Part shown: one piece after another, positions 30,787 through 63,487 of the stretch
Layout: the number at the start of each line of letters is the position of its first letter
Numbering within the stretch: position 1 is the stretch's first letter
DNA from: an uncultured Geobacteraceae bacterium
GTDB taxonomy: Bacteria > Desulfobacterota > Desulfuromonadia > Geobacterales > Pseudopelobacteraceae
Length of the DNA stretch: 64,000 nucleotides
Assembly (NCBI GenBank): GCA_903875605.1
Contig: CAIQWT010000043.1
Coordinates: 1 to 64,000, forward strand
Direction: 5' to 3'
Program-made: the position numbers and the translations under genes
The notes under the pieces: generated by a model
What the model was told of the DNA's origin: nothing
Seen by the model: only the letters and a program-made list of their open reading frames with translations
Databases searched by the model: none

Positions 30787-30838
30787 TGCTTTTGCTCCAT
30801 TTTCTTTGCTGCCACCAGATAAGCCCTGTGGAATGTAC

Positions 30839-35780: not shown

Positions 35781-36526
35781 GCCTCATTGCCACTCTTTGT
35801 AGACAATTTATGCAGGAACCTCAGAAGCTCTCTTACCGTTTCAAAAACGTGACTTAGCTTTACCGAAGAAACACCACTCTGACGCCGGCAGCTATTTACA
35901 CGGAATTCACCAATGCGGCACCCATGAGCCATAGCCAGGCAAACAAGTTCGGTATCAACAAAAAAACCTCGTGAAACCAGATGTATTGAATCTATAAATG
36001 AGCGTTTGAATAGCTTGAATGGGCAGTGGGCATCTCGCAGCCGGACACCGAATAGTTTCCTGATCAGAAGGTTGTACGACTTAGAGATAATACGGCGAGA
36101 CCAAGGGTCAACGCGGTTCTCCCGGCAGCCAACCAGCAGTTCATACTGCCCTATTTGTTCGATAAAGAGTGGAAGTACTTTCATTTCGATCTGTAGATCA
36201 GCATCAGTGAAAAGGATCCACTCCATCTGCGCCTGCCTGAACCCGGTAGTTAAAGCAGCACCTTTACCCAGATTATCCGGATGAATAATTACTCGAACTT
36301 TATCATTTTGGTTAGCCAGCTCATTCAGAATTTCGGCCGACGAATCGCCACTGCCGTCATCTATAATAATCACTTCGTAATCCGCAAGATTACATTTTGA
36401 CACTTCTGTGATGATTGACTCCAAAGCGGCCCGAATGTTTTTCCCCTCATTATAAGCCGGAATAACAACTGATAGCGTAAGAGTTTCTGAAACAGCGTTA
36501 CTTTGGGTTATTGATTCGTTCAACAC
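35777..36526 (-). CDS. CsbB/DPM1-like GT2 glycosyltransferase
   Basis: A GT2 enzyme of about 249 residues with VIPAYNEGKN, DDGSGDSS and DADLQ motifs, closely matching the paralogue at 32938-33720. The start is unclear: a TTG at 36604 would add a hydrophobic segment absent from the paralogue, while the GTG at 36526 (with AGGA 7 bases upstream) gives a similar length; I chose the GTG. It should make a polyprenyl-phosphate sugar used by the YfhO-like protein encoded immediately downstream. Confidence 0.75.
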   Translation of the reverse strand: MLNESITQSNAVSETLTLSVVIPAYNEGKNIRAALESIITEVSKCNLADYEVIIIDDGSGDSSAEILNELANQNDKVRVIIHPDNLGKGAALTTGFRQAQMEWILFTDADLQIEMKVLPLFIEQIGQYELLVGCRENRVDPWSRRIISKSYNLLIRKLFGVRLRDAHCPFKLFKRSFIDSIHLVSRGFFVDTELVCLAMAHGCRIGEFRVNSCRRQSGVSSVKLSHVFETVRELLRFLHKLSTKSGNEA

Positions 36527-36628
36527 ATCGGATTCCTGATATATTTTTTGATAAATATGAACTATTTCAACAACTATAATCAAACAAACAATAATTGGTA
36601 ACAATCATTTTACGGGGAAAATATATTA

Positions 36629-37537
36629 TTACTCATTTGAATCACCATGTACGAGAATCTCCACTGAGGTATGCCCAAAAGCTTGAAAACGATCTGTCTT
36701 CAATTTGATGTCGCATGGGTTGCAGAAGCCGTAATAGTCGCATCGCCTGAATTCATCGGTCAAAACAAACTCCGGATCCAGGATGTTCCCAATAGGAACC
36801 CTGCCTTCATAAAGATCACCGTGGCATCTGTAGATGCCTCCGTCAGGCCCGATAATCAGTTCGGTCGTCCTACAACTAACAAGCGGACCCTTGTCTCTAA
36901 TCAAGGCGCCATGGTAGCTGAAACGGCCATACATTACGCCATCATATTCACCAAGAAACTCTTTAGTGCGAAAGTCAATTCCCAAACCAAGGCAGTAATC
37001 CCGCGCTCTGAGAATTTCTAATTCCCATTTAGGGTGCAACACGCCCCAAATGCCGATGCTGTAGCCTGCCTCAAGAAATGACAACACCTTGGCCGCCAGC
37101 TTTTTTATATCCATAACTTCAGGGTGGTAGCTCACCCGTATGGAAGCATAGGGTGCGTCTCTTTTGAGCCGTCCAGGAACAATATTTTCCATGAATTGCC
37201 CCAAATCAACTTCCAGATTGGTGAGGATGTCAATAGCAAGACCTGGGCGGATACCGTTGACTATCGAAAAAAAATCATGATGCAGTGTCGGTTCACCCCC
37301 CTGCAGAGTAACGGGTAAATCATGACTGGAAACTATCCGGTTTATTCCCCTTAGCCACTCATCTCCATCTAGCACTCTACGCTTGAAATTCAGCTCACCA
37401 AAGCGGTTAATGCAGTAACTGCAGTAAAGATTACAGTCAAGTGTGATAAACATAGCAATATAGTTGTAACTGTCCGGCAGGACAATCTGCTTAAGCGTAC
37501 CGGAACACAAACTCTCTAAATTTTCCTGAGATGTCAT
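36629..37537 (-). CDS. Radical SAM protein with C-terminal cluster-binding region
   Basis: About 302 residues from the ATG at 37537 (a TTG at 37567 is an alternative). Cys35, Cys39 and Cys42 form the CxxxCxxC site and LQGGEPT follows. The C-terminal part has CRTTELIIGPDGGIYRC and a CDYYGFCNPC set, which suggests a SPASM- or twitch-like auxiliary cluster. Enzymes of this type modify peptides, sugars or lipids. It ends a run of sugar-related genes and precedes the GT2/YfhO modules, so a role on a sugar or glycolipid is plausible. The substrate cannot be told from sequence. Confidence 0.8.
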   Translation of the reverse strand: MTSQENLESLCSGTLKQIVLPDSYNYIAMFITLDCNLYCSYCINRFGELNFKRRVLDGDEWLRGINRIVSSHDLPVTLQGGEPTLHHDFFSIVNGIRPGLAIDILTNLEVDLGQFMENIVPGRLKRDAPYASIRVSYHPEVMDIKKLAAKVLSFLEAGYSIGIWGVLHPKWELEILRARDYCLGLGIDFRTKEFLGEYDGVMYGRFSYHGALIRDKGPLVSCRTTELIIGPDGGIYRCHGDLYEGRVPIGNILDPEFVLTDEFRRCDYYGFCNPCDIKLKTDRFQAFGHTSVEILVHGDSNE

Positions 37538-37573
37538 AGGCAAAAAAAATCCATAGCGAAAAGACAAGGGCTG

Positions 37574-38422
37574 TTAACCATTCCCTCTCCAGATCCTGCG
37601 CAACACGAGCCCAAAAAGAAAATGCGCGGCCGAAACGATATTTCTCAAGGTCAGTGAACTGGAACTGCCATGTTGTCGCTCTCCGCAGACTGTTGGGATT
37701 TCCACATAAGTTTTGCCCTGATCCAGGAGCCTGGTAATAAGATCTGCCTGAAAATCAAAACCTTGCGAATTAATGTGCCAACGCATCACGTCGTAGCGCA
37801 AATGCACCGAACAGCCATTATAGTAATTGATCTTGTACCCGCTGATTCCATTTACAAGACCTGTGAACAGCAGCGACAGCAACCTTCGGAAGAGGGTCCT
37901 GTTAGGACTTTGAATATGGGTCGGGATCAATATGTCTGCCTCCCCCAAGTGGCACAAGATGGATGTAATCTGAGCACTGTCTTCCACATTGTCACCATTA
38001 ATAAGCCGGTAGTGCTTTCCCCTCCCGAGAAAAGCCGCCTCAATAAAATTCTGGGCAAGTCCGCGGTTTTTTTTAAGCACCTCCAGATGCAGCGGGTAAT
38101 CAGGATGCACATTCATATATTCCTGAATCAACGGCACTGACCTATCCCTAGAGGCATCATCAACTATGATAACCTCCCAAGACAACTCAAGCCTGGCCAT
38201 AGCCTTTGCAACTTCATCGAGTGTATCAATGATATTGTCTTCTTCATTGTAACAGGCTACAAAAAGCGTAATGTCCATTTCTGACTCGCCCTGCTCGCGG
38301 ATACGCGCTGCATAAGTGCTGTAGAGATTTGAACTGTTGGCCGCAACAAATTCACCATCATTCATATTTTTCAGCAGACGTATTTTTTTTTCCAAATTGA
38401 TAATTACTCCGTTTCTGAACAA
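37574..38422 (-). CDS. GT2 glycosyltransferase
   Basis: A GT2 enzyme of up to 282 residues. Core motifs: FVACYNEEDN, VDDASRD and a GDN in place of the usual DxD (INGDNVED), an unusual metal site. A hydrophobic segment near residues 185-200 and a C-terminal amphipathic end suggest membrane association. The start is uncertain: TTG at 38422 overlaps the epimerase gene by 19 bases, a TTG at 38395 has GGAG upstream, and ATG 38365 is also possible. It lies in the same operon as an epimerase and two radical SAM genes. Confidence 0.75.
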   Translation of the reverse strand: MFRNGVIINLEKKIRLLKNMNDGEFVAANSSNLYSTYAARIREQGESEMDITLFVACYNEEDNIIDTLDEVAKAMARLELSWEVIIVDDASRDRSVPLIQEYMNVHPDYPLHLEVLKKNRGLAQNFIEAAFLGRGKHYRLINGDNVEDSAQITSILCHLGEADILIPTHIQSPNRTLFRRLLSLLFTGLVNGISGYKINYYNGCSVHLRYDVMRWHINSQGFDFQADLITRLLDQGKTYVEIPTVCGERQHGSSSSLTLRNIVSAAHFLFGLVLRRIWRGNG

Positions 38423-39294
38423 ACGGAATGCCTGCAGGCTTCGTTTGCATATTTTATTATATTTGCTAAAACATCAGCCGGTCCATAATTAAAATAATTA
38501 ATGGCCAATTCATTGCCTATAACAAATGAATTGGCGGACAATCCATTGTTAATTATCTTTGAACAAGAACCTGTAACCTTAATTATCTCAATTACAGCGT
38601 CTTTTATGGTGACAGAATTTTTCGAGGCAACTGGAAAGGCATTGAACCCATAAAAACCATTAGATATAAGCGTGAGTAAAAATTGTAGAAGATCGTCCGT
38701 ATGGACTACATTATTAAACCATCCATTTTCATTAACAATGCCTATCTCTTCCCCACAGACAGCCTGTGCAAGCACTTTGGCAATCCATCCTTTTTTTGCA
38801 CCGGGCCCGACTATACCGCATAGCCTCAGCGAAACGGATGGCAAAATATTTTGACAATCCTGCAACATACATTCACACAGATATTTTGAAACGCCGTAGA
38901 TTGTCGGATTGATTCTGTCTGTTTTCTCATCCACGAATTTACTCTTAACTTCTCCGTAAATATCAATGCTGGAAGTAAAGACGATTCCTTTAACACCCGC
39001 TCTCTTTGCGCAAAGGATAACGTTTCCCATCATTGCCAAGTTTATATCGATAAATTCTTGTAATGACATCTCTTGAAAATTATGCACCGCAGCACAGTGC
39101 ACGATATAATCAGCATCGCCTACCAGAGGAATCTCTCTGGCCAAATCATTTTTCAGCCAAAGCACACCGTTCTCGCACATTTCCGGTGGTTTATTCCGGT
39201 AAAGAGCGATAATGGTGTGATTACCATTCGCTTGCAGTCCTTCCGCAATAATCCGTCCAACGAAACCACTCGCACCAGTGACAATAATTTTCAT
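38404..39294 (-). CDS. NAD-dependent sugar epimerase/dehydratase (extended SDR)
   Basis: A 296-residue extended short-chain dehydrogenase. TGASGFVG at residues 6-13 binds NAD(P), a HCAAVHNF segment follows, and the YGVSK motif with the catalytic Tyr and Lys is near 133-137, with Ser at the SS-D-I-Y-G strand. Members interconvert or dehydrate nucleotide sugars. GAGGA lies 9 bases before the ATG. It sits between a radical SAM gene and a GT2 gene, consistent with making a modified sugar donor for this island. The exact nucleotide sugar is not predictable. Confidence 0.85.
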   Translation of the reverse strand: MKIIVTGASGFVGRIIAEGLQANGNHTIIALYRNKPPEMCENGVLWLKNDLAREIPLVGDADYIVHCAAVHNFQEMSLQEFIDINLAMMGNVILCAKRAGVKGIVFTSSIDIYGEVKSKFVDEKTDRINPTIYGVSKYLCECMLQDCQNILPSVSLRLCGIVGPGAKKGWIAKVLAQAVCGEEIGIVNENGWFNNVVHTDDLLQFLLTLISNGFYGFNAFPVASKNSVTIKDAVIEIIKVTGSCSKIINNGLSANSFVIGNELAINYFNYGPADVLANIIKYANEACRHSVCSETE

Positions 39295-39312
39295 TGTACA
39301 AAATCCTCTTCA

Positions 39313-40383
39313 TTACACAAATTCCAAATGTTCCCTGTCAGCGTCAAGATACTCCAAAATTTGTCGATTACTAGGATCAACGACGCAATGATGATTACAC
39401 ACTTTAGAAGGATCAATATCGAAAAAACCGCCTTTTTCTCTGTGCCAAAAATCCTTGAAACGTATATCCCGGATTGAGCCAAGTAGACCATCTTTTTGGT
39501 TGTAGGCCTTATCATGGCATGAATATACATTTTGATCGGCACCTATAACAGGTGATATCTGCAGATACGGGCACCAACGATAACCCTTTGCAAATGACTC
39601 CAATTGGGTATGAAACGAGTCGAAAATTTCAAACCCTGCACCTTTGAATTCTGCCATGGCGTTGGCAATCTGTTCTTTCACTACTGAAAACAACGGCTGG
39701 TGGTACAGATTATTTTCGCTTCCGCTGTTACTTACAATACAAGGGGCGACCTTAACACTGTCAAGACCAGCATCATACAGACTACGTATCAAATCATAGA
39801 TGTGGCCACAATTGTTCTTGTCAACCACTATACAGGCACCAAGTTGACAGGAATCACCTAGCTTCTTGAAGTTAGAGATATTCGTCATTACCCGACTGAA
39901 TTCATCATCGGGGCATCTGCGATAAGCCGCATAACTGGCACCATCCCATCCATCCATAGAGATTCTGAGCCAAGTGGCATGACCGGCAAAAATATCCGCC
40001 AGCTTACCGCTCAACCTGGCACCATTTGTCAGTGCCGCAAAACGGACGCCCTTTTCGACCAATTGCTCAACAGTCTCAAGCAGATACGGATAACAGAAAG
40101 GATCACCACCGCCGCTAAAAGTGACCGCCCGTACTCCCATTTCAGCAATATCTTCAACAATTTCGAGCATTTTATCCCGAGGGATATAATCCTCTAAATC
40201 CATATCCTGGCCAAGCTGCAGCCCTTTGGCCCGATAAGCACAGTAGGAGCAGTTGTGATTACAGATATTTGTCGGTTTTATTCTGATATTGATCGGTGGT
40301 AAAATTATATCGGACTGTCGCGAGAGCGACTCCAGCTTTTCCCTAAAGTGGAATATCTTCATCCTAGTATACAGCAATCCCAT
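39313..40383 (-). CDS. Radical SAM/SPASM protein
   Basis: A 356-residue radical SAM protein: Cys41, Cys45 and Cys48 (CNHNCSYC), a SGGGDP SAM loop, and a C-terminal region with CPYL, CHDK and CNHHC cysteines that resembles SPASM. A GGAG sits 6 bases before the ATG at 40383. It follows a methyltransferase gene by 23 bases and precedes the epimerase by 18, within one operon. Related enzymes epimerise, dehydrogenate or cross-link substrates; which of these applies is unknown. Confidence 0.8.
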   Translation of the reverse strand: MGLLYTRMKIFHFREKLESLSRQSDIILPPINIRIKPTNICNHNCSYCAYRAKGLQLGQDMDLEDYIPRDKMLEIVEDIAEMGVRAVTFSGGGDPFCYPYLLETVEQLVEKGVRFAALTNGARLSGKLADIFAGHATWLRISMDGWDGASYAAYRRCPDDEFSRVMTNISNFKKLGDSCQLGACIVVDKNNCGHIYDLIRSLYDAGLDSVKVAPCIVSNSGSENNLYHQPLFSVVKEQIANAMAEFKGAGFEIFDSFHTQLESFAKGYRWCPYLQISPVIGADQNVYSCHDKAYNQKDGLLGSIRDIRFKDFWHREKGGFFDIDPSKVCNHHCVVDPSNRQILEYLDADREHLEFV

Positions 40384-40406
40384 CCCGCTCTCCCTGACTG
40401 GTAATC

Positions 40407-41069
40407 CTATTGAAAATAGATAAACTCATAATCGCCGCTGTAGCCGAATTCTCCAAAGAGCCAGATCCATTCTTCCGGGGACAAGAACGCAGCGCAGGTT
40501 AAGGCCCAGCACTGTAGATTAAACAGTTCCTGCTCAGTGCGATACCCTTCAACTACTAGATACTTTTCCCTCCCTACCCTCTCCATTTCCTGCAGAGCCA
40601 GCTTCAAATCCGGTAGATGTAAGTTGTGCAGGGTGGTCATGGAAATCACTAGGTCGAATTCCTGGTCAGCAAAAGGATAGGGATCCTGGGCGCGCTGGAT
40701 AAAGAGTTGATCGCGAATCTCTTCCTTGGAATTAGCAATGGCATAGGCAGAAATATCAAAACCGCTGATTCTGGCAGTTGGTAGAAGTTGCTGTAGCTCA
40801 TAAAGCAGAAATCCTTTACCACAACCTACGTCGAGTATCGTTGCATCCGGACTCAGGCGGTAAGTATCAACAAGCCTCTCTGCGACCGATTTCCATCTAC
40901 CGTCGTATCGGTAGCCACCATATCCGTAGCGGCGATCGCCATCCCAATAATCACTATCGTATCGGCGCGCAACCTGCACACATTCTACTTTGGCATCCAA
41001 CATTCTGGCCAAATAATCGCGTGAAGTACTATTGTGAAGAGTACTGATTATGTTTTTTAAAGATCCCAC
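40407..41069 (-). CDS. Class I SAM-dependent methyltransferase
   Basis: A 220-residue protein with the Rossmann motif I DVGCGKGFLL (near residue 80) and motif LVISMTTLHNL for the post-II region. The GTG start has AGAGGA five bases upstream and is 2 bases from the stop of the transketolase gene, so the two are tightly coupled. The N-terminus is Tyr/Asp/Gly-rich (RRYDSDYWDGDRRYGYGG), which is unusual and may form a flexible lid. Likely acts on a sugar or small molecule in the same pathway. Confidence 0.85.
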   Translation of the reverse strand: MGSLKNIISTLHNSTSRDYLARMLDAKVECVQVARRYDSDYWDGDRRYGYGGYRYDGRWKSVAERLVDTYRLSPDATILDVGCGKGFLLYELQQLLPTARISGFDISAYAIANSKEEIRDQLFIQRAQDPYPFADQEFDLVISMTTLHNLHLPDLKLALQEMERVGREKYLVVEGYRTEQELFNLQCWALTCAAFLSPEEWIWLFGEFGYSGDYEFIYFQ

Positions 41070-41071
41070 CG

Positions 41072-41989
41072 CTATCCTCTCTGCAATGTTTCAATTGTAT
41101 GTACGATATCCAGGGCGGAAATACCAAAGGACGACCGCAGTCCTTCAGTTGTACCGATTTCGTGAATAAAATGAGGGGCGATCCCCATAAGAGAAAGCCC
41201 CCACTTGACTGAATGCTCCGATTTGAGACGAGCAAGCATACTGCCCAGACCGCAATTGACAAAATGCTCTTCCACGCATACAACCTGCGTCACATTGGCC
41301 AGAAGCTCTAGTATTGAAACACTATCAAGGGGCTGCAAAGTTGGAATCGAAACTAGAAGTGGCACAATACCTTTAGCCAGAAGCTGATCGGCTGCTACCA
41401 TAACTTCATTAGCAATGGAACCATAAAACACAATTGCCGTATCAACGCCATCCCTTGCAATATTGGGAGTTGTAATGTCAACTATATCATTACGACAAAA
41501 GATTGGTTCTCCACGTTTTGCCAACCTAATATAAACCGGCTTATTACTATTCAGCGCATAAACCGCCGCTGCGCTTGCCTCAACCGGATCCATAGGCGAA
41601 ATTGTCACAAGATTGGGTAGCGTTTGAACTACTCCTAAATCTTCAACCGAGTAGTGGCTCATCCCCATTGGGGCGTAAGTAATACCGCTGCCTGTACCAA
41701 TCAGTACCACTGGTAATTCCTGATAACAGATGTCATTACGAACCTGCTCATAACAACGGTAGAGAACAAAAGGGATAATGTTATAAACAAAAACCTTATA
41801 GCCTGTCAGAGCCAAACCGGCTGCAAAGCTGATGGTGTTCTGTTCTGCTATGCCCATGTTTCTAAAACGATCCGGATACTCCTCCTGAAACCGGTCGAAA
41901 ACCCCAAGCCCGCCATCTCCACTGAGAATAAAGATATCGTCGCGCATTCGGCATGCATCTAATATGGTATTGATAAACGAATTTCTCAT
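41072..41989 (-). CDS. Transketolase, C-terminal (pyrimidine-binding) subunit
   Basis: A 305-residue split-transketolase half: the pyrimidine-binding domain with the GIAEQN catalytic Glu (residues ~44-49) and the C-terminal domain. It must pair with the TPP-diphosphate-binding half encoded at 43757-44545 to form an active enzyme that moves a two-carbon unit between sugars. Stand-alone pairs like this often serve secondary-metabolite or modified-sugar pathways and not the pentose phosphate pathway. The two halves are separated by a glycosyltransferase gene, an unusual arrangement. Confidence 0.9.
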   Translation of the reverse strand: MRNSFINTILDACRMRDDIFILSGDGGLGVFDRFQEEYPDRFRNMGIAEQNTISFAAGLALTGYKVFVYNIIPFVLYRCYEQVRNDICYQELPVVLIGTGSGITYAPMGMSHYSVEDLGVVQTLPNLVTISPMDPVEASAAAVYALNSNKPVYIRLAKRGEPIFCRNDIVDITTPNIARDGVDTAIVFYGSIANEVMVAADQLLAKGIVPLLVSIPTLQPLDSVSILELLANVTQVVCVEEHFVNCGLGSMLARLKSEHSVKWGLSLMGIAPHFIHEIGTTEGLRSSFGISALDIVHTIETLQRG

Positions 41990-42065
41990 CAGAATAGTTT
42001 TTCTTTCCCGTTACATATATTAAAAACAAAATAGCGTGTGCGTAACTTCAGCTTCTGAAATCTTA

Positions 42066-43649
42066 TCAAAATTTATAGATATATATAGAATATCCAGCAC
42101 GTGCAATCGGAGTAGCGTATCGTAGCCATGGTGTGCCCACAAGTGCTGTAACACTGATTGCATAAATACCTGGGAATGGATTTTCAATTTCTTGAAATGA
42201 AACACGTGTTGCATATACACCATAAGAGGTAGGATCTGCAGTCCCATTATAAACAAGCTTTATGGTACCAATCTCTGGATGATTTTTCTGCCAAGTTGCA
42301 AGTGCAGGCAAATCCTGCCCAGTATCGCTATCGTCACCAGTCAATAAATAAGGTCCGCGACTAGGCCCTCCTACGGCAATATTAAAATATGAAAGATGGT
42401 GCGGATATATAAATATTATTTCTGCTAACAGCCACAAAACTAACAACAAAGACGCATATCTTATCATTTTACTATCTACAATTACGACCCTTGCCGCAAA
42501 AAGATATAGAAATGGAAGGGCTGGCAAAATTCTTCTTACACCAAAATTACCTTTATCAAAACAAGAGACTCCAACTATTATCGCCGGAGGAATTAACAAT
42601 ACAAACGTATGCTTTCGATATCGGGAGTCTTGAAAAGAAAGAATAACAGCAGCTAATATAAATAAAAGGGTTGGGACTGGTGTCTTTATAAAAAAGGCAA
42701 CTATATAATAATACCATCTGGTTTTATCTGATATTTCACCAAAAAAATACCAGGTTGGTGAAGACTCCAGATCTGAATATAAGTATTTAAGCCCCGCGAA
42801 ATAATTTAAAGGATTAAAATTATATGCTAACGAAACGACAAACATAGCGAATAACATAATAATGCCTGTTTGTAACAGGCGAGTCTTTATTGGATATTTT
42901 TTATCTGCTTCAAAATATTTTACTACAGCTAGTACTATATATATGGGCGCCAATAAAAGAGATGTATATTTAGCAAGAAAAGCTATACCTGTCACAAGTC
43001 CACATAAACAAATATACTTTTTTATTGGCTTATGAAGAAATTTCCAATACAGCAAAACAGAAACAAACACAAAGGTCGTACAACCTATATCCTCAGTCGC
43101 TACTTTTGATTGTGCTATTATATTTGGACAGAACGCAGCTAATGCGGTAGCGAGTAATGCCGGAACGTCTCCGTAAAGCTCTCTTCCCCAAAAAAATATA
43201 GCTATAACAAGACCCGTACCAATAATCATTACTGGTAAGCGACACCATGTTGAAATTTTCACGGGGTCATTTTCATTGCTATAAATAAATCTAAACCCGT
43301 ACTCTGCTTGAGGATTTTTTGATGTAGTTAGTTCTGCATAATTTGGCTGAGAAGCCTTTATATCCATAAACAAAAGAGGGAGCGCTTCAATCGATCTCAT
43401 AAATGGTGGGTGTGATTGATTAAAACCATAATTATACGTCATTAGATAGTTGTATCCAGAAGCAATGTAACTTGGTTCATCCCACGTCAATGACATATTC
43501 CTGCTAGCAAAAAAGACTTGAATAAAAAATGTGCATGAAAGCAGTAAAACAATCAATAACGCAATATATGACCGTGTCGCCTTGATCTTAGGGACGACGC
43601 CATGCAAAACAAGATTGGTACCGACTTTCAAGGGTGAAATTATAAACAT
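42066..43649 (-). CDS. GT39-like membrane glycosyltransferase, located between transketolase halves
   Basis: A 527-residue protein with about eleven helices, WDEPSY (Asp57-Glu58) in the first outer loop and an SHPPF motif, typical of the ArnT/PMT GT-C group. A soluble C-terminal region (~430-527) carries a GDDSDTGQDLPAL segment common to a subset of these enzymes. The DNA is visibly more AT-rich than its neighbours, and the gene has larger gaps on both sides (107 and 76 bases) than other genes of the operon, hinting that it was inserted between the transketolase halves. GGTGGA lies 6 bases before the ATG. Confidence 0.85.
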   Translation of the reverse strand: MFIISPLKVGTNLVLHGVVPKIKATRSYIALLIVLLLSCTFFIQVFFASRNMSLTWDEPSYIASGYNYLMTYNYGFNQSHPPFMRSIEALPLLFMDIKASQPNYAELTTSKNPQAEYGFRFIYSNENDPVKISTWCRLPVMIIGTGLVIAIFFWGRELYGDVPALLATALAAFCPNIIAQSKVATEDIGCTTFVFVSVLLYWKFLHKPIKKYICLCGLVTGIAFLAKYTSLLLAPIYIVLAVVKYFEADKKYPIKTRLLQTGIIMLFAMFVVSLAYNFNPLNYFAGLKYLYSDLESSPTWYFFGEISDKTRWYYYIVAFFIKTPVPTLLFILAAVILSFQDSRYRKHTFVLLIPPAIIVGVSCFDKGNFGVRRILPALPFLYLFAARVVIVDSKMIRYASLLLVLWLLAEIIFIYPHHLSYFNIAVGGPSRGPYLLTGDDSDTGQDLPALATWQKNHPEIGTIKLVYNGTADPTSYGVYATRVSFQEIENPFPGIYAISVTALVGTPWLRYATPIARAGYSIYIYKF

Positions 43650-43756
43650 CTGTCATCCACCATGTGTTATTTTGGCATCGATAAATATGATATTCATGAT
43701 TGCTTTGAATGTATTAATCATAATACCACTCACCAATATTAATATAATGTATTTTA

Positions 43757-44545
43757 TTACAGCTCCTTTAATGCAGCTTCTCTATGTTGGTCTGTAACAA
43801 TATAATAGTGCCAGACTAGCTCATTTTCCATAAATGAAACGCCTTTACCCTTAACCGTCCGAGCAACAACAATCTTTGGTTTGCCACAGCTGTCTTCGGC
43901 AAGTGCGGAAAGAATGGCGTCGTGGTCATGGCCGTCCGCCTCACAAACATGCCAACCAAATGCTTGCCACTTTTCGACTACTGGTTCAAATGAGCAGATT
44001 TCAGTGGGGCGGCCATACCCCTGAAGGTCGTTGCAGTCCATAATGGCAGTAAAATTGTCAAGCCCCATGCGAGGAGCAAATAAAGCACCTTCCCAGATAG
44101 ATCCTTCCTGAGATTCACCGTCACCGATCATCACATAGACACGGCGATCTGTTCGCTGCTGTTTAAACCCATAAGCCATACCCAGGCCAATGCTGAAACC
44201 GTGGCCAAGCGAACCGGCCGAACACTCAATCCCACGACCGGTGGTTTTATCAAGGTGAGCAGGAAGTCGTCCGCCTGCACGGCAGTATGTCTCAAGTACC
44301 CCCTCTGGCATAATCTCTCTGGCTACCAACGTAGCATAGAGCACCATGGAAGCATGGGCCTTACTGAGAATAAAAACATCTCGTCTCTCCCATGGTTCTA
44401 GACGTAGCACACTGAAATAGAGCGATGCCAAGATATCTACACAGGAAAGGGCAGACCCAACATGAGGACTACTGGAACGATGCGCCATCTCTATGATATC
44501 TCGCCTTATACTGCGTGCCTTATCTTCTAACTGTTCCGCAATCAC
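43757..44545 (-). CDS. Transketolase, N-terminal (TPP-binding) subunit
   Basis: A 262-residue protein with the TPP and Mg2+ motif GDGESQEGSIWE ... CNDLQGYG (residues ~118-155) and the SPHVGSALSCVD start typical of split transketolases. It lacks the pyrimidine-binding half, which is encoded at 41072-41989. The GTG start has AGAGG upstream. It lies 10 bases after a radical SAM gene. Likely role: two-carbon transfer that builds or splits a sugar for the island's product. Confidence 0.9.
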   Translation of the reverse strand: MIAEQLEDKARSIRRDIIEMAHRSSSPHVGSALSCVDILASLYFSVLRLEPWERRDVFILSKAHASMVLYATLVAREIMPEGVLETYCRAGGRLPAHLDKTTGRGIECSAGSLGHGFSIGLGMAYGFKQQRTDRRVYVMIGDGESQEGSIWEGALFAPRMGLDNFTAIMDCNDLQGYGRPTEICSFEPVVEKWQAFGWHVCEADGHDHDAILSALAEDSCGKPKIVVARTVKGKGVSFMENELVWHYYIVTDQHREAALKEL

Positions 44546-44555
44546 TAGTTACCTC

Positions 44556-45632
44556 TCAAATGAAATTTACATGTCCATTGGGATGTGTCAGTTCCCAGAG
44601 GTAAAGATTTATTTCATCCATACGGCAATTCATACGACAGCCTTCCGGGTCAAGTTCAGAGGCAATCATTTTCAGCGATGACCTTCTCCGCTCCCCCCTC
44701 CAGATCCTGCTGAAATCTTCCTCTAAAACATTCCCATAGAGAAAACGCTCATCTCCAAGATATGAACTACAGCCCCACACATTACCCGCTGCATCAATAT
44801 AAGACCAGAATGGCAACGCCATACAGCGCCCGTAGCCCCGCTCTGCCCGCTGCATCTTGTTAATGGTATTTGTGCGAAAAATCACTGTGAAGGTATCATC
44901 GTTAAAACAGTTGAGGCTCTCTGCCAGATTCAGCCAGGGAGAGTAATCGATTCCCTCATACAAACGGGCATGGCTTTTATGATGCTGAGAATATGGTTTT
45001 ATTACCAGGTATCTCGCTCCGGCATCTTTTGAACGCCGAGCCAACATCTCCATCTCTGCTGCATTTTCAGGCAGCAACACAGCCTGGACACCAAGAGTGC
45101 ATTTCAACCTATTTTCCGCAATAAGACGCGATGCGGACCTGATGTTAGCAAACACTGTGTTATAATCTTCCGGTTTCGTACGATGAATGGCGGCATAGCC
45201 TTCGGGTGAGCCAGAGTTGACACTTACTTTAATCCAACTCATGTGCGGGAGAATCTGGCTTGCCAGATCTGGTGAGAGAAATACACCATTAGTCGTCATA
45301 GCAACGTCGATTCCGGCAGATCGGGTTTGCACTACTATCTGCCCGATATCACGGTGCAAAAGCGGCTCTCCCTCACCGCCATACATAATACTGGCAACAC
45401 CAAGGGAACCGAGCTCTTTCAGGCGTTGCAAGAGAATACCGGTATCCAAAAAATGTGCTTTATATCCGACGAAATCAACAGCACAGAACTTACAGCGGTG
45501 ATTGCAGATTCCGGCAGGAGATATCTCCATATAAACGGGATAAATCAAAGTGCCGTTAAGCCATTGAACAACTCGACGGGGATGAAAGATGAGCTTGTGA
45601 CTGTCAATTCTAAAGGTACTGGCTGGAGGCAT
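44556..45632 (-). CDS. Radical SAM/SPASM protein
   Basis: A 358-residue radical SAM protein with Cys43, Cys47 and Cys50 (CNHRCKFC) and a YGGEGEP SAM loop. The C-terminal part has CMALP, CSSYL and C-R-M-N-C positions matching a SPASM/twitch region. It resembles the radical SAM protein at 39313 in overall layout (long N-terminal lead before the cluster, NH-rich cluster motif). Just downstream, 10 bases away, is the transketolase N-terminal half. Its substrate is unknown; neighbours suggest a sugar-derived molecule. Confidence 0.8.
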   Translation of the reverse strand: MPPASTFRIDSHKLIFHPRRVVQWLNGTLIYPVYMEISPAGICNHRCKFCAVDFVGYKAHFLDTGILLQRLKELGSLGVASIMYGGEGEPLLHRDIGQIVVQTRSAGIDVAMTTNGVFLSPDLASQILPHMSWIKVSVNSGSPEGYAAIHRTKPEDYNTVFANIRSASRLIAENRLKCTLGVQAVLLPENAAEMEMLARRSKDAGARYLVIKPYSQHHKSHARLYEGIDYSPWLNLAESLNCFNDDTFTVIFRTNTINKMQRAERGYGRCMALPFWSYIDAAGNVWGCSSYLGDERFLYGNVLEEDFSRIWRGERRRSSLKMIASELDPEGCRMNCRMDEINLYLWELTHPNGHVNFI

Positions 45633-45664
45633 CTTGTTAAAATAGCATCATTGCAAAGTGTCCG

Positions 45665-46603
45665 TCAATGACTGTCTCCCTGACTCAAGAGACGCTCTAC
45701 TGCCCCCATGACGGTTGAAACAGCAATAAATTCCATACAGTGGGATTCATTAGAACAGTTTGGCTCCAAACAGGGTATACATCGCCGGTCAAGGTCAGGA
45801 TACAGAGCTTCTCCCCTGCCATAAAAGCAGGTTTCATTTGGATTGGTCGGTCCATACAAAACAACTATTTTTTTCCGCAGTGCAAGCGCAATGTGCAGCC
45901 CCAGACTATCATTCGTTACCAGAAGACGACATGAATTGATCCAGTCCATGTATGCATAAAGATTGTCCATACCTTGTTGCATCGAAAAGCTGTATTTACC
46001 GGCCATTAATTGTTTGAGTTCATCCCATTTCCCAGCTGGCCAGGATTTGTTTTTCCATTTGGAGCCGACAGCCCAGTTGAGCCCTACATCAAATGTTTCT
46101 TTTGATTCAGGTCGATAGCCGAGGATGTACTCTTGACCCTCCCACTTAGCACCAACAATTTGCAAAAGAGACTCCTGCCAGCTTCCCTGGTAGGTTCTTT
46201 TGTAGTCATCATCCTTACATAAAGAAAAAACTTTTTCACAACCATCGTAAGCTTCAGCAACCCCATGCATCTCATCAAATCTGAAACCGTAACGCCTCCA
46301 GGCGGAAATGGAGTCAGCAAGGGCACAAACGCCCGGTACTTTCTCCAGATTGATGACCGTATCAAATCGTTCCCGCTGTAACTGCAGAACTGAAGAAAGA
46401 TCATAGGTCAATATACGATTTATATATGGGTTACCTTCCAGTAACGGATATGCCTGTTCATCGACAAGCCATGTTACATTGTCGTCAGCAAAAGGATAAA
46501 GAACAACCGATGTACGGAGCACATCTCCCAGACTGGTTACTTTTCCGATTCCGGCGTCAATGGTTTCGGAGTAGCCAAGTTTTATTATCAGAACTTTCGC
46601 CAT
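45665..46603 (-). CDS. GT9 (heptosyltransferase-like) glycosyltransferase
   Basis: A 312-residue GT-B enzyme of the ADP-heptose:LPS heptosyltransferase family. TNDSLGLHIALALRK and the YGPTNPNET loop form the donor site; the N-terminal domain opens with KLGYSETIDAG instead of the usual KxRxLGD, so the acceptor may differ from LPS core. Two CxxC-like Cys near the end (RRCIPCLEPNC) are shared with many GT9 members. It lies 16 bases after the B12-type radical SAM gene and 32 before another radical SAM gene, in one operon. Confidence 0.85.
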   Translation of the reverse strand: MAKVLIIKLGYSETIDAGIGKVTSLGDVLRTSVVLYPFADDNVTWLVDEQAYPLLEGNPYINRILTYDLSSVLQLQRERFDTVINLEKVPGVCALADSISAWRRYGFRFDEMHGVAEAYDGCEKVFSLCKDDDYKRTYQGSWQESLLQIVGAKWEGQEYILGYRPESKETFDVGLNWAVGSKWKNKSWPAGKWDELKQLMAGKYSFSMQQGMDNLYAYMDWINSCRLLVTNDSLGLHIALALRKKIVVLYGPTNPNETCFYGRGEALYPDLDRRCIPCLEPNCSNESHCMEFIAVSTVMGAVERLLSQGDSH

Positions 46604-46619
46604 TTATTTACCAATCCAT

Positions 46620-48635
46620 TCAAAGAACGCTTTCTATTGTAGAAACAGCTCTAAAGTATTCACATATTTTCGGATTTTTTGCTATTACCGTGGCATAACC
46701 ATGAAGCCCAGATTTCAATAATGATTCCGTTTCTGCAATAAATTGCTTGTGTTTATCCGTATGGGAAAAGAGAAACTGCGTCTCACCGCTAGCCCTGTAA
46801 GCCCATGGTATTTTATTCAGTCCCAACTTGCCTAACCCCAAAAAATCATAGTGAAAGAGACCGCTACGTTCCTCATGAATCATCAACAGATCATTTTTTC
46901 TCAGCAGATCAAAACGCATCAACTGGTCAAGATAATCAACGGCACGGGGAGACAAATGTCCAGACGACCGTAACAGATCTGTAGCGACACCATACGCCAG
47001 AGCAATAAGTTCGTCCATTTTTTCAAAGAGGGCTACCGCTTTATAGGCTAGCTGCTCGTTTCTACCTAGCTCCCCGTTTGCATATCGTTCAAGAACGCCC
47101 GGCTGCTGAAGAAATACTGTCAACTCTTCGCGAGTTCCCCACAGCTCCTGAGTATCCTTCAAAAAACCTGAATAAAGATTTGCAAGCGCTGGAACAGCCC
47201 AAACACACGCGTTAAGCTGCATAATAAAAGAAGAAATAGTTATATCCAGATATTTCAAAAAAGCATGGAGTTCTGAGAAAACTCCGTTATTATAAAATAT
47301 TTCAACCGTCAGATCAAAACAGCGACAGCCAAGATAATCTTGAAAAGACATGGTATTATTGGAAACGCAAATTTCATCAACTTCAGGGGCACAAAATGAT
47401 TGCCCAAAAATCGAATAGGTATTGACCGTATTGTGTATTACCCTAAACCTTGTCTGTAATCCGAACTTCTTACGACTCACTGCTGAAGCCACTTCTGCCC
47501 CAGGAAGCATAATTAGCTGATGAGAGCGAACTACATGGATTCCTGCATCAATCAGATCTGCAGCCGACTTACAGTGGGCAACCAGTGTATCACCGGGGAG
47601 GGCGACAATAATCTCGGAAAAACTGTGTGTTTTGTCAAGATCAAGCTCTGTAGCCGATTCAATCAACTCTTTGAGAGAAACATTTCGACGCTTTATATTA
47701 TCCAGCACCACAATATCAGATGATTGAATCGCAGCACTGAACATGCCACCTTTAATCGTTGCAACAGTTTTGAGTACCCGCTCCTTGTTATTCTTACCGG
47801 AAATACTGACAACAAATTCCGGCCAGCCGTGTTCTTTCTGAACAGTTGCCAGTGCTAAAGCGGAATTTATATCTTCCGAGTACATTCCAAAATTGGAGTC
47901 TGCCAAAAACAGTGTAGATGACTTGGCAAGTGATCCAATATATTCTAAGTCGCTCTTAATTCTGGCATTACTATAATGTTTAGTGGCATTGAAATACGCG
48001 TCACCCTCCTGACAATAGGTGCATCCAAAAGGACAACCGCGAACTGTCTGAATAACGGCCGCATGCCCCTCTTCAAGAAACTGGTCACATAGTCCTGATA
48101 CATAAGGAGATGGCAGTTGGTCAAGAGAATCAATGCGCTGCAGCGGAACCCCGGCTATTAAGACTCCATCCTGACAATAATGGCATCCTGGCAAATGATT
48201 TCCGTGAGTCTTCAACGCTTCGACGTTAAAGTCGAAATCCTTCAATGCCTTATACAGTTGCACAAATGCGTTTTCACCTTCTCGATACACAAAGAAATCT
48301 ACTTCGGGATGTTTTTCCAGAAAACTTTGCTGACTGGTGACATCAACCGGATAATGAGGGCCGCCAAAAACAATTATGCACTTTGGGTATTTTTTTTTAA
48401 TACGTAAAGCAAATGACAATGAGACTTCTGCATTCCATACAAACATAGAAAAGCAGATCATTCCGGGTTCGCAATCTTCAAAAAGAGACGCAAGATCTGT
48501 CGGTTTTTTAACTAATCGGACAGAGATTTCCTCACCGATCTCTGCAATTGCATTCGCCGCAACAAGTGCTATTCCATAGGGAACGGAGTTACATGTGTGA
48601 CCTGTATGTGTTAAATCGGCAAAATAAATTTTCAT
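46620..48635 (-). CDS. B12-binding-domain radical SAM protein
   Basis: About 671 residues from the ATG at 48635 (GGAG 4 bases upstream). Residues 1-150 resemble a cobalamin-binding Rossmann domain (VFGGPHYP), the radical SAM core has Cys201, Cys205 and Cys208 (CPFGCTYC), and a long C-terminal part (~420-671) is of unknown fold. Class B enzymes of this sort methylate unreactive carbon or phosphorus, or do ring rearrangements with cobalamin. It is the first gene of the radical SAM, GT9 and transketolase run. No protein or carbohydrate motif reveals the substrate. Confidence 0.8.
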   Translation of the reverse strand: MKIYFADLTHTGHTCNSVPYGIALVAANAIAEIGEEISVRLVKKPTDLASLFEDCEPGMICFSMFVWNAEVSLSFALRIKKKYPKCIIVFGGPHYPVDVTSQQSFLEKHPEVDFFVYREGENAFVQLYKALKDFDFNVEALKTHGNHLPGCHYCQDGVLIAGVPLQRIDSLDQLPSPYVSGLCDQFLEEGHAAVIQTVRGCPFGCTYCQEGDAYFNATKHYSNARIKSDLEYIGSLAKSSTLFLADSNFGMYSEDINSALALATVQKEHGWPEFVVSISGKNNKERVLKTVATIKGGMFSAAIQSSDIVVLDNIKRRNVSLKELIESATELDLDKTHSFSEIIVALPGDTLVAHCKSAADLIDAGIHVVRSHQLIMLPGAEVASAVSRKKFGLQTRFRVIHNTVNTYSIFGQSFCAPEVDEICVSNNTMSFQDYLGCRCFDLTVEIFYNNGVFSELHAFLKYLDITISSFIMQLNACVWAVPALANLYSGFLKDTQELWGTREELTVFLQQPGVLERYANGELGRNEQLAYKAVALFEKMDELIALAYGVATDLLRSSGHLSPRAVDYLDQLMRFDLLRKNDLLMIHEERSGLFHYDFLGLGKLGLNKIPWAYRASGETQFLFSHTDKHKQFIAETESLLKSGLHGYATVIAKNPKICEYFRAVSTIESVL

Positions 48636-48706
48636 CTGACTCCAATAACATCTGTAACTACCTATATTCACAACCTAAGCCTGTATCAGCGGATATCAGG
48701 AGAAAA

Positions 48707-50383
48707 TCATTCAATCCAATAAATTGGCCCATTAACAGAACCGGCCCGTTTAAAATCTTCACCTGCGCTCACTACTCTACCTAACTTATTCATCAAAATC
48801 CCGCGATAATAAAAATAAAGCGGATGCGGATATAATGAAATTGCAGTATTGAAGTCCACCAAAGCATTTTCATAATATCCGGCTTTCATCAAGGAATCTC
48901 CGCGAAACGCATACACATTATACATTGTAGGACCGTTGAGACCGGCGGATAGGCTGATACATGTGGTAAAATCGTTAACGGCTTCGATGTAATAACCGTT
49001 TTCTGCAAGAGCTTCCCCGTGAAAAAAGTACGCTTTTTCAAATAGTGGTTGATGATCAATAACTTTTGACCATAGGGTATTTGAATTTTTCCAGTCACCA
49101 ATAAGCTGATAGGTAGTAATTGAATAAAACCCCAGCAGCGCCAGCACAAACCCGGCAAAAATTTTGCTAGCGGATTTTTGTAATGATTCTAACTTCTGAT
49201 ATCCATCGATAACCATGGCTGAGATGATTACAACCGGCAAGAGCGATGCAAGATATGTGTAACGAGGTGCCAACATTACCTGGTAACCATCGGCAAAGAA
49301 ATGAAGAGCAGGAAAAAGTGTGATCACGAAGGAGAGAATTATTGCAACAATCCAAGGAAACTTTTTTCGCCCCAAACATGTAATGCCTAACAATGAAACA
49401 TAAACGAGAGCAGACTTTAAAATATAAATTTCGGGGATTGGCCTTGGCAAGTGATAATAGGGAAGAATATCTACAGGAAACAGCATTAGATTAAAATATT
49501 CAAGAATTGAATTGCCTGCTGCAACCAACCGTACCGTAAAGGGAAGGTCTGAGAGGGAATTGTACCCACCCTGAACGACTCTGCCGATTATGCTTGCGGC
49601 AATAATCGGCAGAGCAAGGACAACATAAGGTAATTTTTCTATTATCAGAGTCATCCATTTATTTTTCCCAAATCGATCCAATGGGAACCAATCCATTATT
49701 AACAAAGTGAGTGGGATAAATATACTACCCGGTTTTGCAGTCAATGAGACCAGAAAAAGAGTCACTGAGCCAATATAGAGCCCATTTTTGGACCAGCCAG
49801 ACGCCGCTGCTTCTTTCCTCTCCACATATTGCAGATAACAATAAATTGATGCAAAAGTGAACAAACCATTCAGAACATCTTTTCTTTCGGTAATCCACAC
49901 TACTGATTCCACTCTTGCTGGATGGATTCCAAATAAAAGGGCGGCAAGTAACAGCATCACATAATACAAAAGATTTGACTCCAACAAGGCATACCTTTTA
50001 AGTGGACTCATTCTGTAAATTCTGTCCGCTATAAACACCACAAAGCCTGTATTAATAGCATGAAGGATCAAATTGGTAAGATGATATCCTAATGGATTAA
50101 GACCCCAGAAATAATAGTCCAACGCATACGATATCCATAACAATGGTACCCAAAAATTCAAAGGAACTGTTGTGAATGCCCAATACCAGAAATCTTTGTT
50201 AAAGTGTCTAATTACTGGATTATTGATTACATATTCCGGGTCCTCATAGTTTACAAAACCACAGGAGAGCGCCCGCATATAGACTATTATGCATACCACA
50301 CTAGCCAGTATAGCGATCAGAAACAGAACTTTACTCTTCAAGTGTATTCCTTCAATTTCATCAATCATTTTCATTTTTGCCAT
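48707..50383 (-). CDS. TMTC-like GT-C glycosyltransferase with short TPR tail
   Basis: A 558-residue membrane protein with about ten helices and two to three TPR units at the end (~430-545). The first outer loop reads NYEDPEYV (Glu47-Asp48) where relatives have Asp-Asp, and the family motif HPARVESVVWI-x-ERKD is present. Close paralogues lie at 51938 and 56584. Several ATGs near the start (50383, 50374, 50368) leave the exact N-terminus open. Likely transfers sugar from polyprenyl phosphate to an extracytoplasmic acceptor, with the TPR tail binding a partner. Confidence 0.8.
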   Translation of the reverse strand: MAKMKMIDEIEGIHLKSKVLFLIAILASVVCIIVYMRALSCGFVNYEDPEYVINNPVIRHFNKDFWYWAFTTVPLNFWVPLLWISYALDYYFWGLNPLGYHLTNLILHAINTGFVVFIADRIYRMSPLKRYALLESNLLYYVMLLLAALLFGIHPARVESVVWITERKDVLNGLFTFASIYCYLQYVERKEAAASGWSKNGLYIGSVTLFLVSLTAKPGSIFIPLTLLIMDWFPLDRFGKNKWMTLIIEKLPYVVLALPIIAASIIGRVVQGGYNSLSDLPFTVRLVAAGNSILEYFNLMLFPVDILPYYHLPRPIPEIYILKSALVYVSLLGITCLGRKKFPWIVAIILSFVITLFPALHFFADGYQVMLAPRYTYLASLLPVVIISAMVIDGYQKLESLQKSASKIFAGFVLALLGFYSITTYQLIGDWKNSNTLWSKVIDHQPLFEKAYFFHGEALAENGYYIEAVNDFTTCISLSAGLNGPTMYNVYAFRGDSLMKAGYYENALVDFNTAISLYPHPLYFYYRGILMNKLGRVVSAGEDFKRAGSVNGPIYWIE

Positions 50384-50406
50384 TCACCAACTGTGCCAAG
50401 GACTTG

Positions 50407-51897: not shown

Positions 51898-51937
51898 TTC
51901 ACTTATCATTTATTCTTTTACCCGCGTCATACGTAGT

Positions 51938-58230: not shown

Positions 58231-58251
58231 AATTTGCCCCTGCAAATAGTT

Positions 58252-59328: not shown

Positions 59329-59357
59329 GAGCATTTCCTCTGCCTCACTATAGTTAA

Positions 59358-60827: not shown

Positions 60828-60916
60828 CACCAATCCCCCAAGCAAAGAGTAAGGTCGGAACGGTCGAGAAGCGTTACTAGTTCAGGGCGGTCAAAGCGAT
60901 TATTACGCTCAATCAT
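60827..60916 (-). CDS. Possible 29-residue small protein, coupled on both sides
   Basis: A reading frame of 29 codons whose ATG overlaps the SGNH-hydrolase stop (ATGA) and whose TGA overlaps the radical SAM start (TGATG). The predicted peptide begins MIERNNRFDRPEL and ends in LGDW, with three Asp-Arg pairs. It bridges the only gap between the two genes, so translation of the pair could pass through it. It could be a real small protein or only a coupling leader; no family is recognised. Confidence 0.3.
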   Translation of the reverse strand: MIERNNRFDRPELVTLLDRSDLTLCLGDW

Positions 60917-62704: not shown

Positions 62705-62705
62705 C

Positions 62706-63485: not shown

Positions 63486-63487
63486 TT

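Follow-up and report, generated by a model that had tools for sequence, protein, structure and literature searches.

What would a transketolase divided over two genes do among radical S-adenosylmethionine (SAM) enzymes and glycosyltransferases? The question is raised by a run of eleven full-length open frames, all on the minus strand at 36629-48671, 2 to 107 bp apart except for one overlap of 19 bp, in a 64,000-nucleotide (nt) stretch of an uncultured Geobacteraceae bacterium (contig CAIQWT010000043.1, assembly GCA_903875605.1; below, the window). By Pfam/NCBIfam profiles, they encode a B12-binding radical SAM protein (B12 rSAM), three other radical SAM proteins (rSAM_A, rSAM_B, and rSAM_C), the two halves of a split transketolase (TK), TK-N and TK-C, a methyltransferase (MT), an epimerase of the short-chain dehydrogenase/reductase (SDR) type, and glycosyltransferases (GTs) of families GT9, GT2, and GT39. 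An original prediction for this DNA had listed the same genes, all of which are present on one strand with short gaps, and had joined them in a single sugar pathway in which ketol transfer, radical chemistry, and methylation come together. With moderate confidence, we read them as a mobile cassette that would make an unusual sugar for a surface glycan, enlarged by a two-carbon unit, by an oxygen-independent route.

A gene set with exchangeable thiamine diphosphate enzymes

We began a census from rSAM_C, so that it carried no bias to the TK. Among 76 genomes from the window's family, 14 have rSAM_C, as do 13 of 395 from the phylum, two genomes being common to both, and 24 of the 25 distinct loci were examined (G047:C551 was left out; G denotes a genome and L a locus). 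A gene for a thiamine diphosphate (ThDP) enzyme lies near rSAM_C in 20 of the 24, and its class varies. Seven loci have a split TK (G000, G011, G012, G033, G035, G046, and G391), twelve have a pair similar to pyruvate dehydrogenase E1 (G010, G019, G029, G032, G192, G291, G313, G315, G333, G375, G429, and G448), one has an acetolactate-synthase-like enzyme, and in four none was seen. The E1-like pairs are in L173 to L175, L177, L193 to L196, L198, L200, and L201; L199 has the beta gene only, and in G315 the beta gene alone was seen before the contig end. In the GC-rich L199 and L203, genes were identified by tblastn. The acetolactate-synthase-like gene (L202 of G142, 11753-13394, minus strand) is spread over two overlapping frames and has rSAM_C and an rSAM_D-like gene as neighbors; this split reading may be a frameshift or an assembly error. 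The window's own genome, 3.58 Mb in 109 contigs, has five Transket_pyr genes, which gives about 0.03 per 20 kb by chance, a rough figure from one genome with acetolactate synthases uncounted.

The E1-type loci contain rSAM_B in 11/12 cases and GT9 in 11/12. Two ThDP systems share one locus in L069 and L176 (TK and an E1-type gene) and in L074 (TK and an acetolactate-synthase-like gene). That rSAM_C loci exchange the TK for other ThDP enzymes is new here. Three branching ThDP families as alternatives beside one radical SAM set are the main new evidence suggesting that the TK would form a carbon-carbon bond on a sugar. The original prediction had offered a branched, deoxy, or carbocyclic sugar. 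Beside the same radical SAM genes, E1-like enzymes, and once an acetolactate-synthase-like one, stand in for the TK; for this reason a branched (or chain-extended) deoxy/keto sugar, with the TK as the putative branching or extending enzyme, is the best supported of these products, and nothing that we found points to a carbocycle.

We also searched TK-C in the 76 same-family genomes, with matches at 55 to 100% identity in 9 of them (own genome counted), and then scanned a species-level genome collection, which gave 64 TK loci. The nearest named relatives of the window TK are Geobacteraceae and Desulfuromonadaceae metagenome-assembled genomes (MAGs). Neighbors were scored in 31 named loci (L056 to L085 and L111), several of them cut by contig ends; the other 33, with more distant TKs, have no called open reading frame (ORF) matching rSAM_A, rSAM_B, rSAM_C, GT9, or MT at an E value of 1e-8. 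In a quick tree, the TK-C sequences of the gene set, below called the module, form one clade of 30 rows with a Shimodaira-Hasegawa-like approximate likelihood ratio test (SH-aLRT) support of 100; L083 and L084 (about 40% identity) are among the 31 loci and outside this clade. The module rows span seven phyla, Thermodesulfobacteriota, Planctomycetota (including Brocadia, Sedimentisphaerales, and others), Nitrospirota, Nitrospinota, Campylobacterota, Myxococcota, and Pseudomonadota; the carriers differ widely, and most are bacteria that avoid oxygen. In Geobacteraceae MAG Cfx3-08 (L056), the window's operon is found in identical order at about 50 to 86% identity, without GT39. Between the two, the ratio of nonsynonymous to synonymous substitution rates (dN/dS) is 0.03 to 0.19 for 8/10 genes, values that are rough because dS is at least 2.6 in seven of these eight; dS is saturated in the other two genes, and GT39 has no partner.

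The scored loci show a regular arrangement. rSAM_B (22/31), GT9 (18/31), and rSAM_C (16/31) mostly precede the TK pair, with rSAM_C after it in some loci. Behind the TK pair come either MT and rSAM_A (16/31) or an RmlD-type SDR and rSAM_D1 (10/31), and rSAM_A and rSAM_D1 were together in none of the 31. MT is present in 16/16 rSAM_A loci and RmlD in 10/10 rSAM_D1 loci; MT occurs without rSAM_A in L077, and RmlD occurs with rSAM_A in two loci. The TK loci share ancestry, and Fisher p values for the pairings overstate independence. Well-supported branches of the quick tree force at least three exchanges of these tailoring pairs within the TK-C clade. Among the 23 named loci with at least 8 kb upstream (long TK loci), GT9 is present in 11 of the 12 that have rSAM_C. 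Thirteen long loci have GT9 only, five HldE only, five neither, and none both; since GT9 and HldE never occur together, they appear to be two alternative front ends. The HldE front end also comes with GmhA-like and often with GSU2086-family genes. This family is deoxyhypusine-synthase-like, and the loci where HldE-like genes lie near a TK with GmhA-like and/or GSU2086-family genes (L068, L075, L079, L080, L111, L170, and L171) have no GT9 or rSAM_C matches.

Other genes of the window are less constant. The B12 rSAM has homologs at 65% in L056 and at 35 to 37% in L064 and L066, and the GT2 at 37574..38422 has homologs at 58 to 70% in L056, L057, and L058. The SDR has a homolog (41 to 50%) at the equivalent place in L056 and L057; in L043/L071, L041/L069, and L037/L058, that place is taken by an RmlD-type SDR. 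For the GT39 gene between TK-N and TK-C, no match was found in the relatives' loci compared, and L060 has an unrelated-looking 403-amino-acid (aa) ORF there. We rejected GT39 as a core member since no GT39 match lies between the TK genes in the loci compared; it is a local insertion. From these comparisons, the core is rSAM_B, TK-N, and TK-C, with rSAM_C accompanied by GT9, followed by MT and rSAM_A or by RmlD and rSAM_D1, and the B12 rSAM, SDR, and GT2 are accessory genes that vary between loci. Chance clustering was rejected, as the same gene set recurs across loci of seven phyla. A cluster search in other genomes had been proposed as a check on the original prediction; in ours, the core genes co-assort across phyla, so independent assortment is not borne out. 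The idea of one pathway has thus gained backing for its core, although its chemistry and product are still conjectural, and the treatment of all listed genes as one set holds for the core genes and not for the GT39 or the three variable ones.

Searches started from single genes gave a similar distribution. rSAM_A was found in 5/76 family genomes and 5/395 phylum genomes, in eight distinct loci, and it adjoins a TK pair in seven of these (the TKs of L170 and L171 are distant). rSAM_B is present in 13/76 and MT in 8/76 family genomes. Three of these family genomes have MT without rSAM_A: G038, where a distant TK adjoins it, G069, where there is no TK, and G047, where the contig is 3.5 kb long. 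In genome G029, one half of the genes (TK, MT, rSAM_A, SDR, and GT2) is on one contig (L036/L057) and a set of rSAM_C, rSAM_B, GT9, and E1 on another (L174), as though the operon of the window had been split in two.

The enzymes, a proposed pathway, and its rivals

TK-N and TK-C are two separate genes for a ThDP-binding chain and a pyrimidine/C-terminal chain, the division that defines a split-gene TK. Their best PDB matches are 6yak, the N chain of the Carboxydothermus split TK (1.8e-62), and 6yaj (8.5e-42), respectively. The catalytic residues are kept (equivalents of H26, H66, H100, D155, and N185 in TK-N and of E411 and H473 in TK-C). The acceptor site of the Escherichia coli TK is described as lined by S385, H461, D469, R520, and R358 (PMC10787763). 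In 30/30 module TKs, the equivalents of S385 and H461 are Gly and that of D469 is never Asp, with E411 and H473 kept; the alignment leaves out tblastn matches shorter than 180 residues (for example L085, L119, L171, and L176). The module TKs thus lack the acceptor pair His461/Asp469, which E. coli TktA shares with the Carboxydothermus enzyme, and because of the changed residues we do not class them as canonical sugar-phosphate TKs. The altered site would fit an acceptor unlike a normal sugar phosphate. The separate full-length TK of the window's own genome (L001) keeps His and Asp. In L171 (6208-6690, plus strand) and L176 (6730-7323, minus strand), the second TK gene is about 160 to 197 aa long, covers the pyrimidine-binding part, and ends before the next gene; these may be a shorter TK type or broken genes.

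DesII, BlsE, BtrN, and SpeY are radical SAM enzymes that act on sugars or cyclitols, and SPASM enzymes often act on peptides. The nearest relatives of rSAM_B by phmmer and by fold are BlsE and DesII, and the same two head a profile search with a mixed rSAM_B/A/D alignment. The rSAM_B model (mean predicted local distance difference test [pLDDT] score 89.1) gave a Foldseek list headed by DesII (5.5e-18) and then BlsE. On structure comparison, DesII (Z 25.8, root mean square deviation [rmsd] 3.9, 332 residues aligned) and BlsE (Z 25.1, rmsd 3.9, 298 aligned) score level with SkfB, which acts on a peptide (Z 25.4, rmsd 3.5, 289 aligned), and BtrN follows (Z 19.6, rmsd 2.9, 230 aligned). C43, C47, and C50 (CxxxCxxC) and C270, C332, and C336 of rSAM_B are invariant in 20 sequences, and C288 nearly so, so that rSAM_B has both the cysteine pattern and the overall fold of SPASM/twitch sugar enzymes. 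In rSAM_A, C41, C45, C48, C271, C289, C329, and C333 are invariant in five sequences. The conserved cysteines of both proteins probably bind clusters. rSAM_C has five invariant C-terminal cysteines (AlphaFold mean pLDDT 86.5), its fold scores are tied between SuiB (Z 15.2), SkfB (14.8), and DesII (14.7), and the SpeY dehydrogenase is a weak match in Foldseek. Candidates for a keto-sugar-making enzyme next to the carboligase are rSAM_B, fold-related to DesII, BlsE, and BtrN, and, on the weak SpeY match, rSAM_C. The B12 rSAM matched TokK (7kdx, 9.2e-40) and CysS (9n1b, 8.2e-29) in phmmer and scored 163.7 bits against the KedN5 profile NF033712, short of its cut-off of 700; by architecture and similarity it is TokK-like and a candidate C-methyltransferase. 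GT9 exceeds the cut-off of PF01075 (49.9 versus 22 bits) and falls below those of heptosyltransferases II, I, and III (47, 41.3, and 28.4 bits versus 134.6, 185.3, and 170.2). MT has a mean column identity of 74% in an alignment of 17 sequences.

From the observed gene content, conservation, co-assortment, ThDP class exchange, kept catalytic motifs, and changed TK acceptor residues, we infer the following reactions, order, and product. GT9 and GT2 would place a sugar on, or close to, an acceptor bound to lipid or glycan. Most loci have GT9 or HldE/GmhA genes, which suggests that the starting sugar may be a heptose. rSAM_C and rSAM_B would then oxidize or dehydrate a hydroxyl to a ketone or aldehyde, at which the split TK would add a hydroxyacetyl C2 unit, either branching the sugar or lengthening its chain; the unit added in sister loci, by the E1-like pair or the acetolactate-synthase-like enzyme, would be acetyl. 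Tailoring would follow by MT and rSAM_A here, or by RmlD and rSAM_D1 elsewhere, with reduction by an SDR and, in the window, perhaps C-methylation by the B12 rSAM. GT-C membrane transferases would finally deliver the sugar. No nucleotidyltransferase family was matched among the eleven genes in the Pfam/NCBIfam scans, so activation would take place elsewhere or the sugar would already be bound. More tentatively, we propose a modular oxygen-independent route in which radical SAM enzymes, and not NAD-dependent 4,6-dehydratases, make the carbonyl, possibly on a glycan-attached sugar, and any of the three ThDP classes adds the carbon unit. The split TK in that route would be a ketone- or glycan-aldehyde-accepting TK, a type so far only proposed. 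We also considered iterative C2 elongation like that of a polyketide synthase (condensation, reduction, dehydration, and C-methylation) and saw no evidence for iteration.

Several observations weigh against the branched-sugar cassette. Four of the 24 rSAM_C loci have no ThDP gene in the stretch examined; one lies on a 9-kb contig (G373), and the gaps in G026:C93 (L181), G060 (L180), and G069 (L178) have no such explanation. The rSAM_A of L172 (G371) has neither TK nor MT nearby, and the second TK gene in G033 is only about 160 to 197 aa long. The H461/D469 pair is also missing in 40/47 other TK rows, so that the change is unspecific to the module. By Foldseek, rSAM_C is nearest to SPASM enzymes of the peptide type. 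The GmhA, HldE, and GSU2086 genes in some loci would allow the TK a role in heptose supply. Finally, L177 (14741-15862, plus strand) encodes a 374-aa fusion of a lipoyl-type domain with a NeuD-type acetyltransferase beside its E1-like pair and rSAM_C, rSAM_B, and GT9, which would fit the acetylation of a sugar better than the making of a carbon-carbon bond; a direct hand-over of the acetyl group to the sugar is possible.

These points lead to other explanations. If the split TK made a ketose phosphate, and enzymes of the GmhA-like and HldE-like kinds converted it into ADP-activated heptose for GT9, the radical SAM enzymes would only decorate. GT9 does belong to the heptosyltransferase family of Pfam, HldE-like genes accompany the TK at the loci named above, and HldE and GT9 exclude each other in the long loci. 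We nevertheless think heptose supply unlikely, though less so at loci with GmhA and HldE: E1-like and acetolactate-synthase-like enzymes, for which heptulose phosphate formation is not known, take the place of the TK beside the same radical SAM genes, the module TK has lost the S385 and H461 equivalents, and a second, full-length TK elsewhere in the genome has the canonical residues. Another explanation starts from the L177 fusion. An E1-type ThDP pair could make acetyl for O- or N-acetylation, so that the swap would be no evidence for carbon-carbon bonding and the TK would be unrelated. The fusion is found in 1 of 12 E1 loci, the next genes elsewhere being GT2 and B12-rSAM or rSAM_D, a TK yields no acetyl group, and L202 has a third ThDP class, which together make acetyl supply quite improbable. 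The lipoyl-acetyltransferase ORF was noticed in no other E1 locus on reading the genes, with no domain search aimed at such fusions. We give as little credence to a generic glycan island, in which radical SAM, ThDP, and GT genes are shuffled by exchange between surface-sugar loci without a joint pathway. The variable B12 rSAM, SDR, GT2, and GT39, the repeated exchange of the late gene pairs, and lone genes such as rSAM_A in L172 and rSAM_C in L180/L181 are what such an island would show; the tight pairings of MT with rSAM_A and RmlD with rSAM_D1, in loci that share ancestry, and the ThDP gene beside rSAM_C at 20 of 24 loci argue for a joint function.

Two further explanations seem very improbable to us. 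Closure of a carbocycle or cyclitol ring by radical and ketol chemistry could be suggested by BtrN, a cyclitol-acting radical SAM dehydrogenase, among the structural relatives of rSAM_B, but no sugar-cyclase family (of the inositol-phosphate or 2-deoxy-scyllo-inosose synthase type) is among the matches of the eleven genes. Modification of a peptide or lipid, with the sugar genes as mere neighbors, would agree with the frequent peptide substrates of SPASM enzymes and with SuiB and SkfB among the nearest folds. Against it, the sugar-acting DesII and BlsE head the mixed profile search, DesII comes first in the rSAM_B Foldseek list, and GT9 goes with rSAM_C in 11/12 E1 loci and 11/12 long TK loci. 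If our preferred reading of a cassette for a sugar with an added two-carbon unit is true, it explains a class of uncharacterized radical SAM genes that anammox bacteria, Geobacter relatives, and other groups have in their glycan loci, supplies split TKs for testing hydroxyacetyl addition to sugar ketones, and offers candidate enzymes for oxygen-free making of tertiary-alcohol branched sugars.

The operon and its surroundings

The features of the locus are collected in the table below. The original prediction had placed the limits at 36629-48635; the start holds, and at 48635 the B12 rSAM gene has an internal ATG, its longest ORF beginning with GTG at 48671. Co-directional genes run past both ends, upstream for TMTC-like/TPR proteins and downstream for GT2/YfhO, so 36629-48671 need not be the limits of the transcript.

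Genes of the operon and its flanks in the window, all on the minus strand
Feature	Size (aa)	Position	Family match	Remarks
B12 rSAM, B12-binding radical SAM protein	683	46620..48671	Pfam B12-binding + Radical_SAM	TokK/CysS/KedN5-like; accessory
GT9 glycosyltransferase (heptosyltransferase family)	312	45665..46603	PF01075 Glyco_transf_9	usually with rSAM_C
rSAM_B, radical SAM/SPASM protein	358	44556..45632	Pfam Radical_SAM + SPASM	common partner of TK and E1-like enzymes
TK-N, ThDP-binding half of split TK	262	43757..44545	PF00456 Transketolase_N	core
GT39/PMT_2 membrane transferase	527	42066..43649	PF13231	between TK-N and TK-C in own genome
TK-C, pyrimidine-binding and C-terminal half of split TK	305	41072..41989	PF02779 Transket_pyr + PF02780 Transketolase_C	core
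MT, class I SAM methyltransferase	220	40407..41069	PF13847	goes with rSAM_A
rSAM_A, radical SAM protein	356	39313..40383	PF04055	alternates with rSAM_D1 + RmlD
NAD(P)-dependent epimerase/SDR	296	38404..39294	PF01370	accessory; candidate ketoreductase or epimerase
GT2 glycosyltransferase	282	37574..38422	PF00535	accessory
rSAM_C, small radical SAM protein	312	36629..37567	PF04055	marker with all three ThDP classes
Upstream flank, TMTC-like + TPR proteins		48707..53563 (48707-50383, 50407-51909, 51938-53563)		perhaps same transcription unit
Downstream flank, GT2		35777-36604 (flank 33717..36604)	PF00535	
Downstream flank, YfhO-like membrane protein		33717-35780 (flank 33717..36604)	PF09586	

The upstream flank proteins matched TPR only in Pfam, and we take them to be TMTC-like from their motifs. 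Their homologs border the cassette in L056 to L058, L181, L193, L195, L196, L198, and L201. On the other side, 28696-36604 holds three YfhO-like membrane proteins, two of them at 54% identity to the third and two preceded by a GT2, a local duplication series. Farther upstream, at 53701-63934, Pfam showed a GT2, an asparagine synthase, and a second B12 radical SAM protein (59358-60845), and a methyltransferase, a GT2, and an aminotransferase were read from the translations; the stretch is like a run of methyltransferase, GT2, aminotransferase, and B12 rSAM genes in L036. At 376-2281, in the neighborhood of a cupin and a permease-like gene, the translations show two more radical SAM-like proteins, both of which have C-terminal cysteines.

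Type IV pilin-like genes lie within about 10 kb of the E1-type cassette in L193, L194, L195, L196, and L198, by N_methyl profile matches in L193, L195, and L198 and by reading in L194 and L196. The same islands also have regulator-like genes, and some have large TPR/TMTC-like membrane proteins; they are candidates for pilin glycosylation. No pilin was recognized among the listed ORFs of the window, and an exact pilin-motif search of its genome gave hits on C50 and C70, contigs other than that of the window.

Comparison with known systems

Like systems for branched sugars, the window has a ThDP carboligase family within a sugar/glycan locus. In the open-licence PMC literature, we found no publication joining radical SAM enzymes with a two-carbon branched-chain sugar; for a transketolase and radical SAM enzymes in O-antigen gene clusters, the one match was a Cronobacter pan-genome paper, and SpeY gave none. 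In a 2025 review (PMC12247030), three ThDP superfamilies are linked to sugar branching, YerE-like decarboxylases, the E1-like alpha-keto acid dehydrogenase 2, and, as a proposal, split TKs; the E1-like case is represented by AviB1/B2 (PMC12247030, PMC4753412, PMC4425429, and PMC10338323). The review counts 13 putative split-TK branching cases, all in Streptomycetes and none characterized in vitro, and calls the test of split-TK hydroxyacetyl addition to sugar ketones pending. The split TK proposed for miharamycin and amipurimycin in Streptomyces is close in kind to that of the window, a two-gene TK in a sugar pathway, there proposed to move a hydroxyacetyl unit to a keto sugar (PMC12247030). 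Unlike it, the TKs described here come from other phyla, lie in glycan loci with radical SAM partners, and are swapped with other ThDP classes. The split-gene TK of Carboxydothermus hydrogenoformans has the same two-chain domain split (6yak/6yaj; PMC7661550), but the His/Asp acceptor residues missing from the module TKs are retained in it.

The E1-like pairs of the sister loci resemble AviB1/AviB2 and Pau11/Pau12, which are E1 alpha/beta-like pairs in sugar clusters with a later ketoreduction (PMC4425429 and PMC4753412). Those belong to antibiotic clusters, whereas the pairs here adjoin rSAM_C and mostly also rSAM_B and GT9. For avilamycin, the ketosugar is said to join the chain first and to receive its C2 unit afterwards (PMC4425429), and addition to a chain-attached ketosugar would agree with the missing nucleotidyltransferase families of our locus. 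YerE and its relatives (yersiniose and related sugars) belong to the ThDP decarboxylase superfamily and branch a deoxy-keto sugar of lipopolysaccharide (PMC12247030). Such an enzyme replaces the TK or E1 at one census locus (L202) and is present besides the TK in L074. YerE takes a CDP-4-keto sugar (PMC12247030), while the window's eleven genes include no sugar-nucleotide-forming family. On the radical side, DesII, BlsE, and BtrN share their fold and C-terminal cysteines with rSAM_B, and SpeY is among the Foldseek matches of rSAM_C; identity to the solved structures is about 22% or less.

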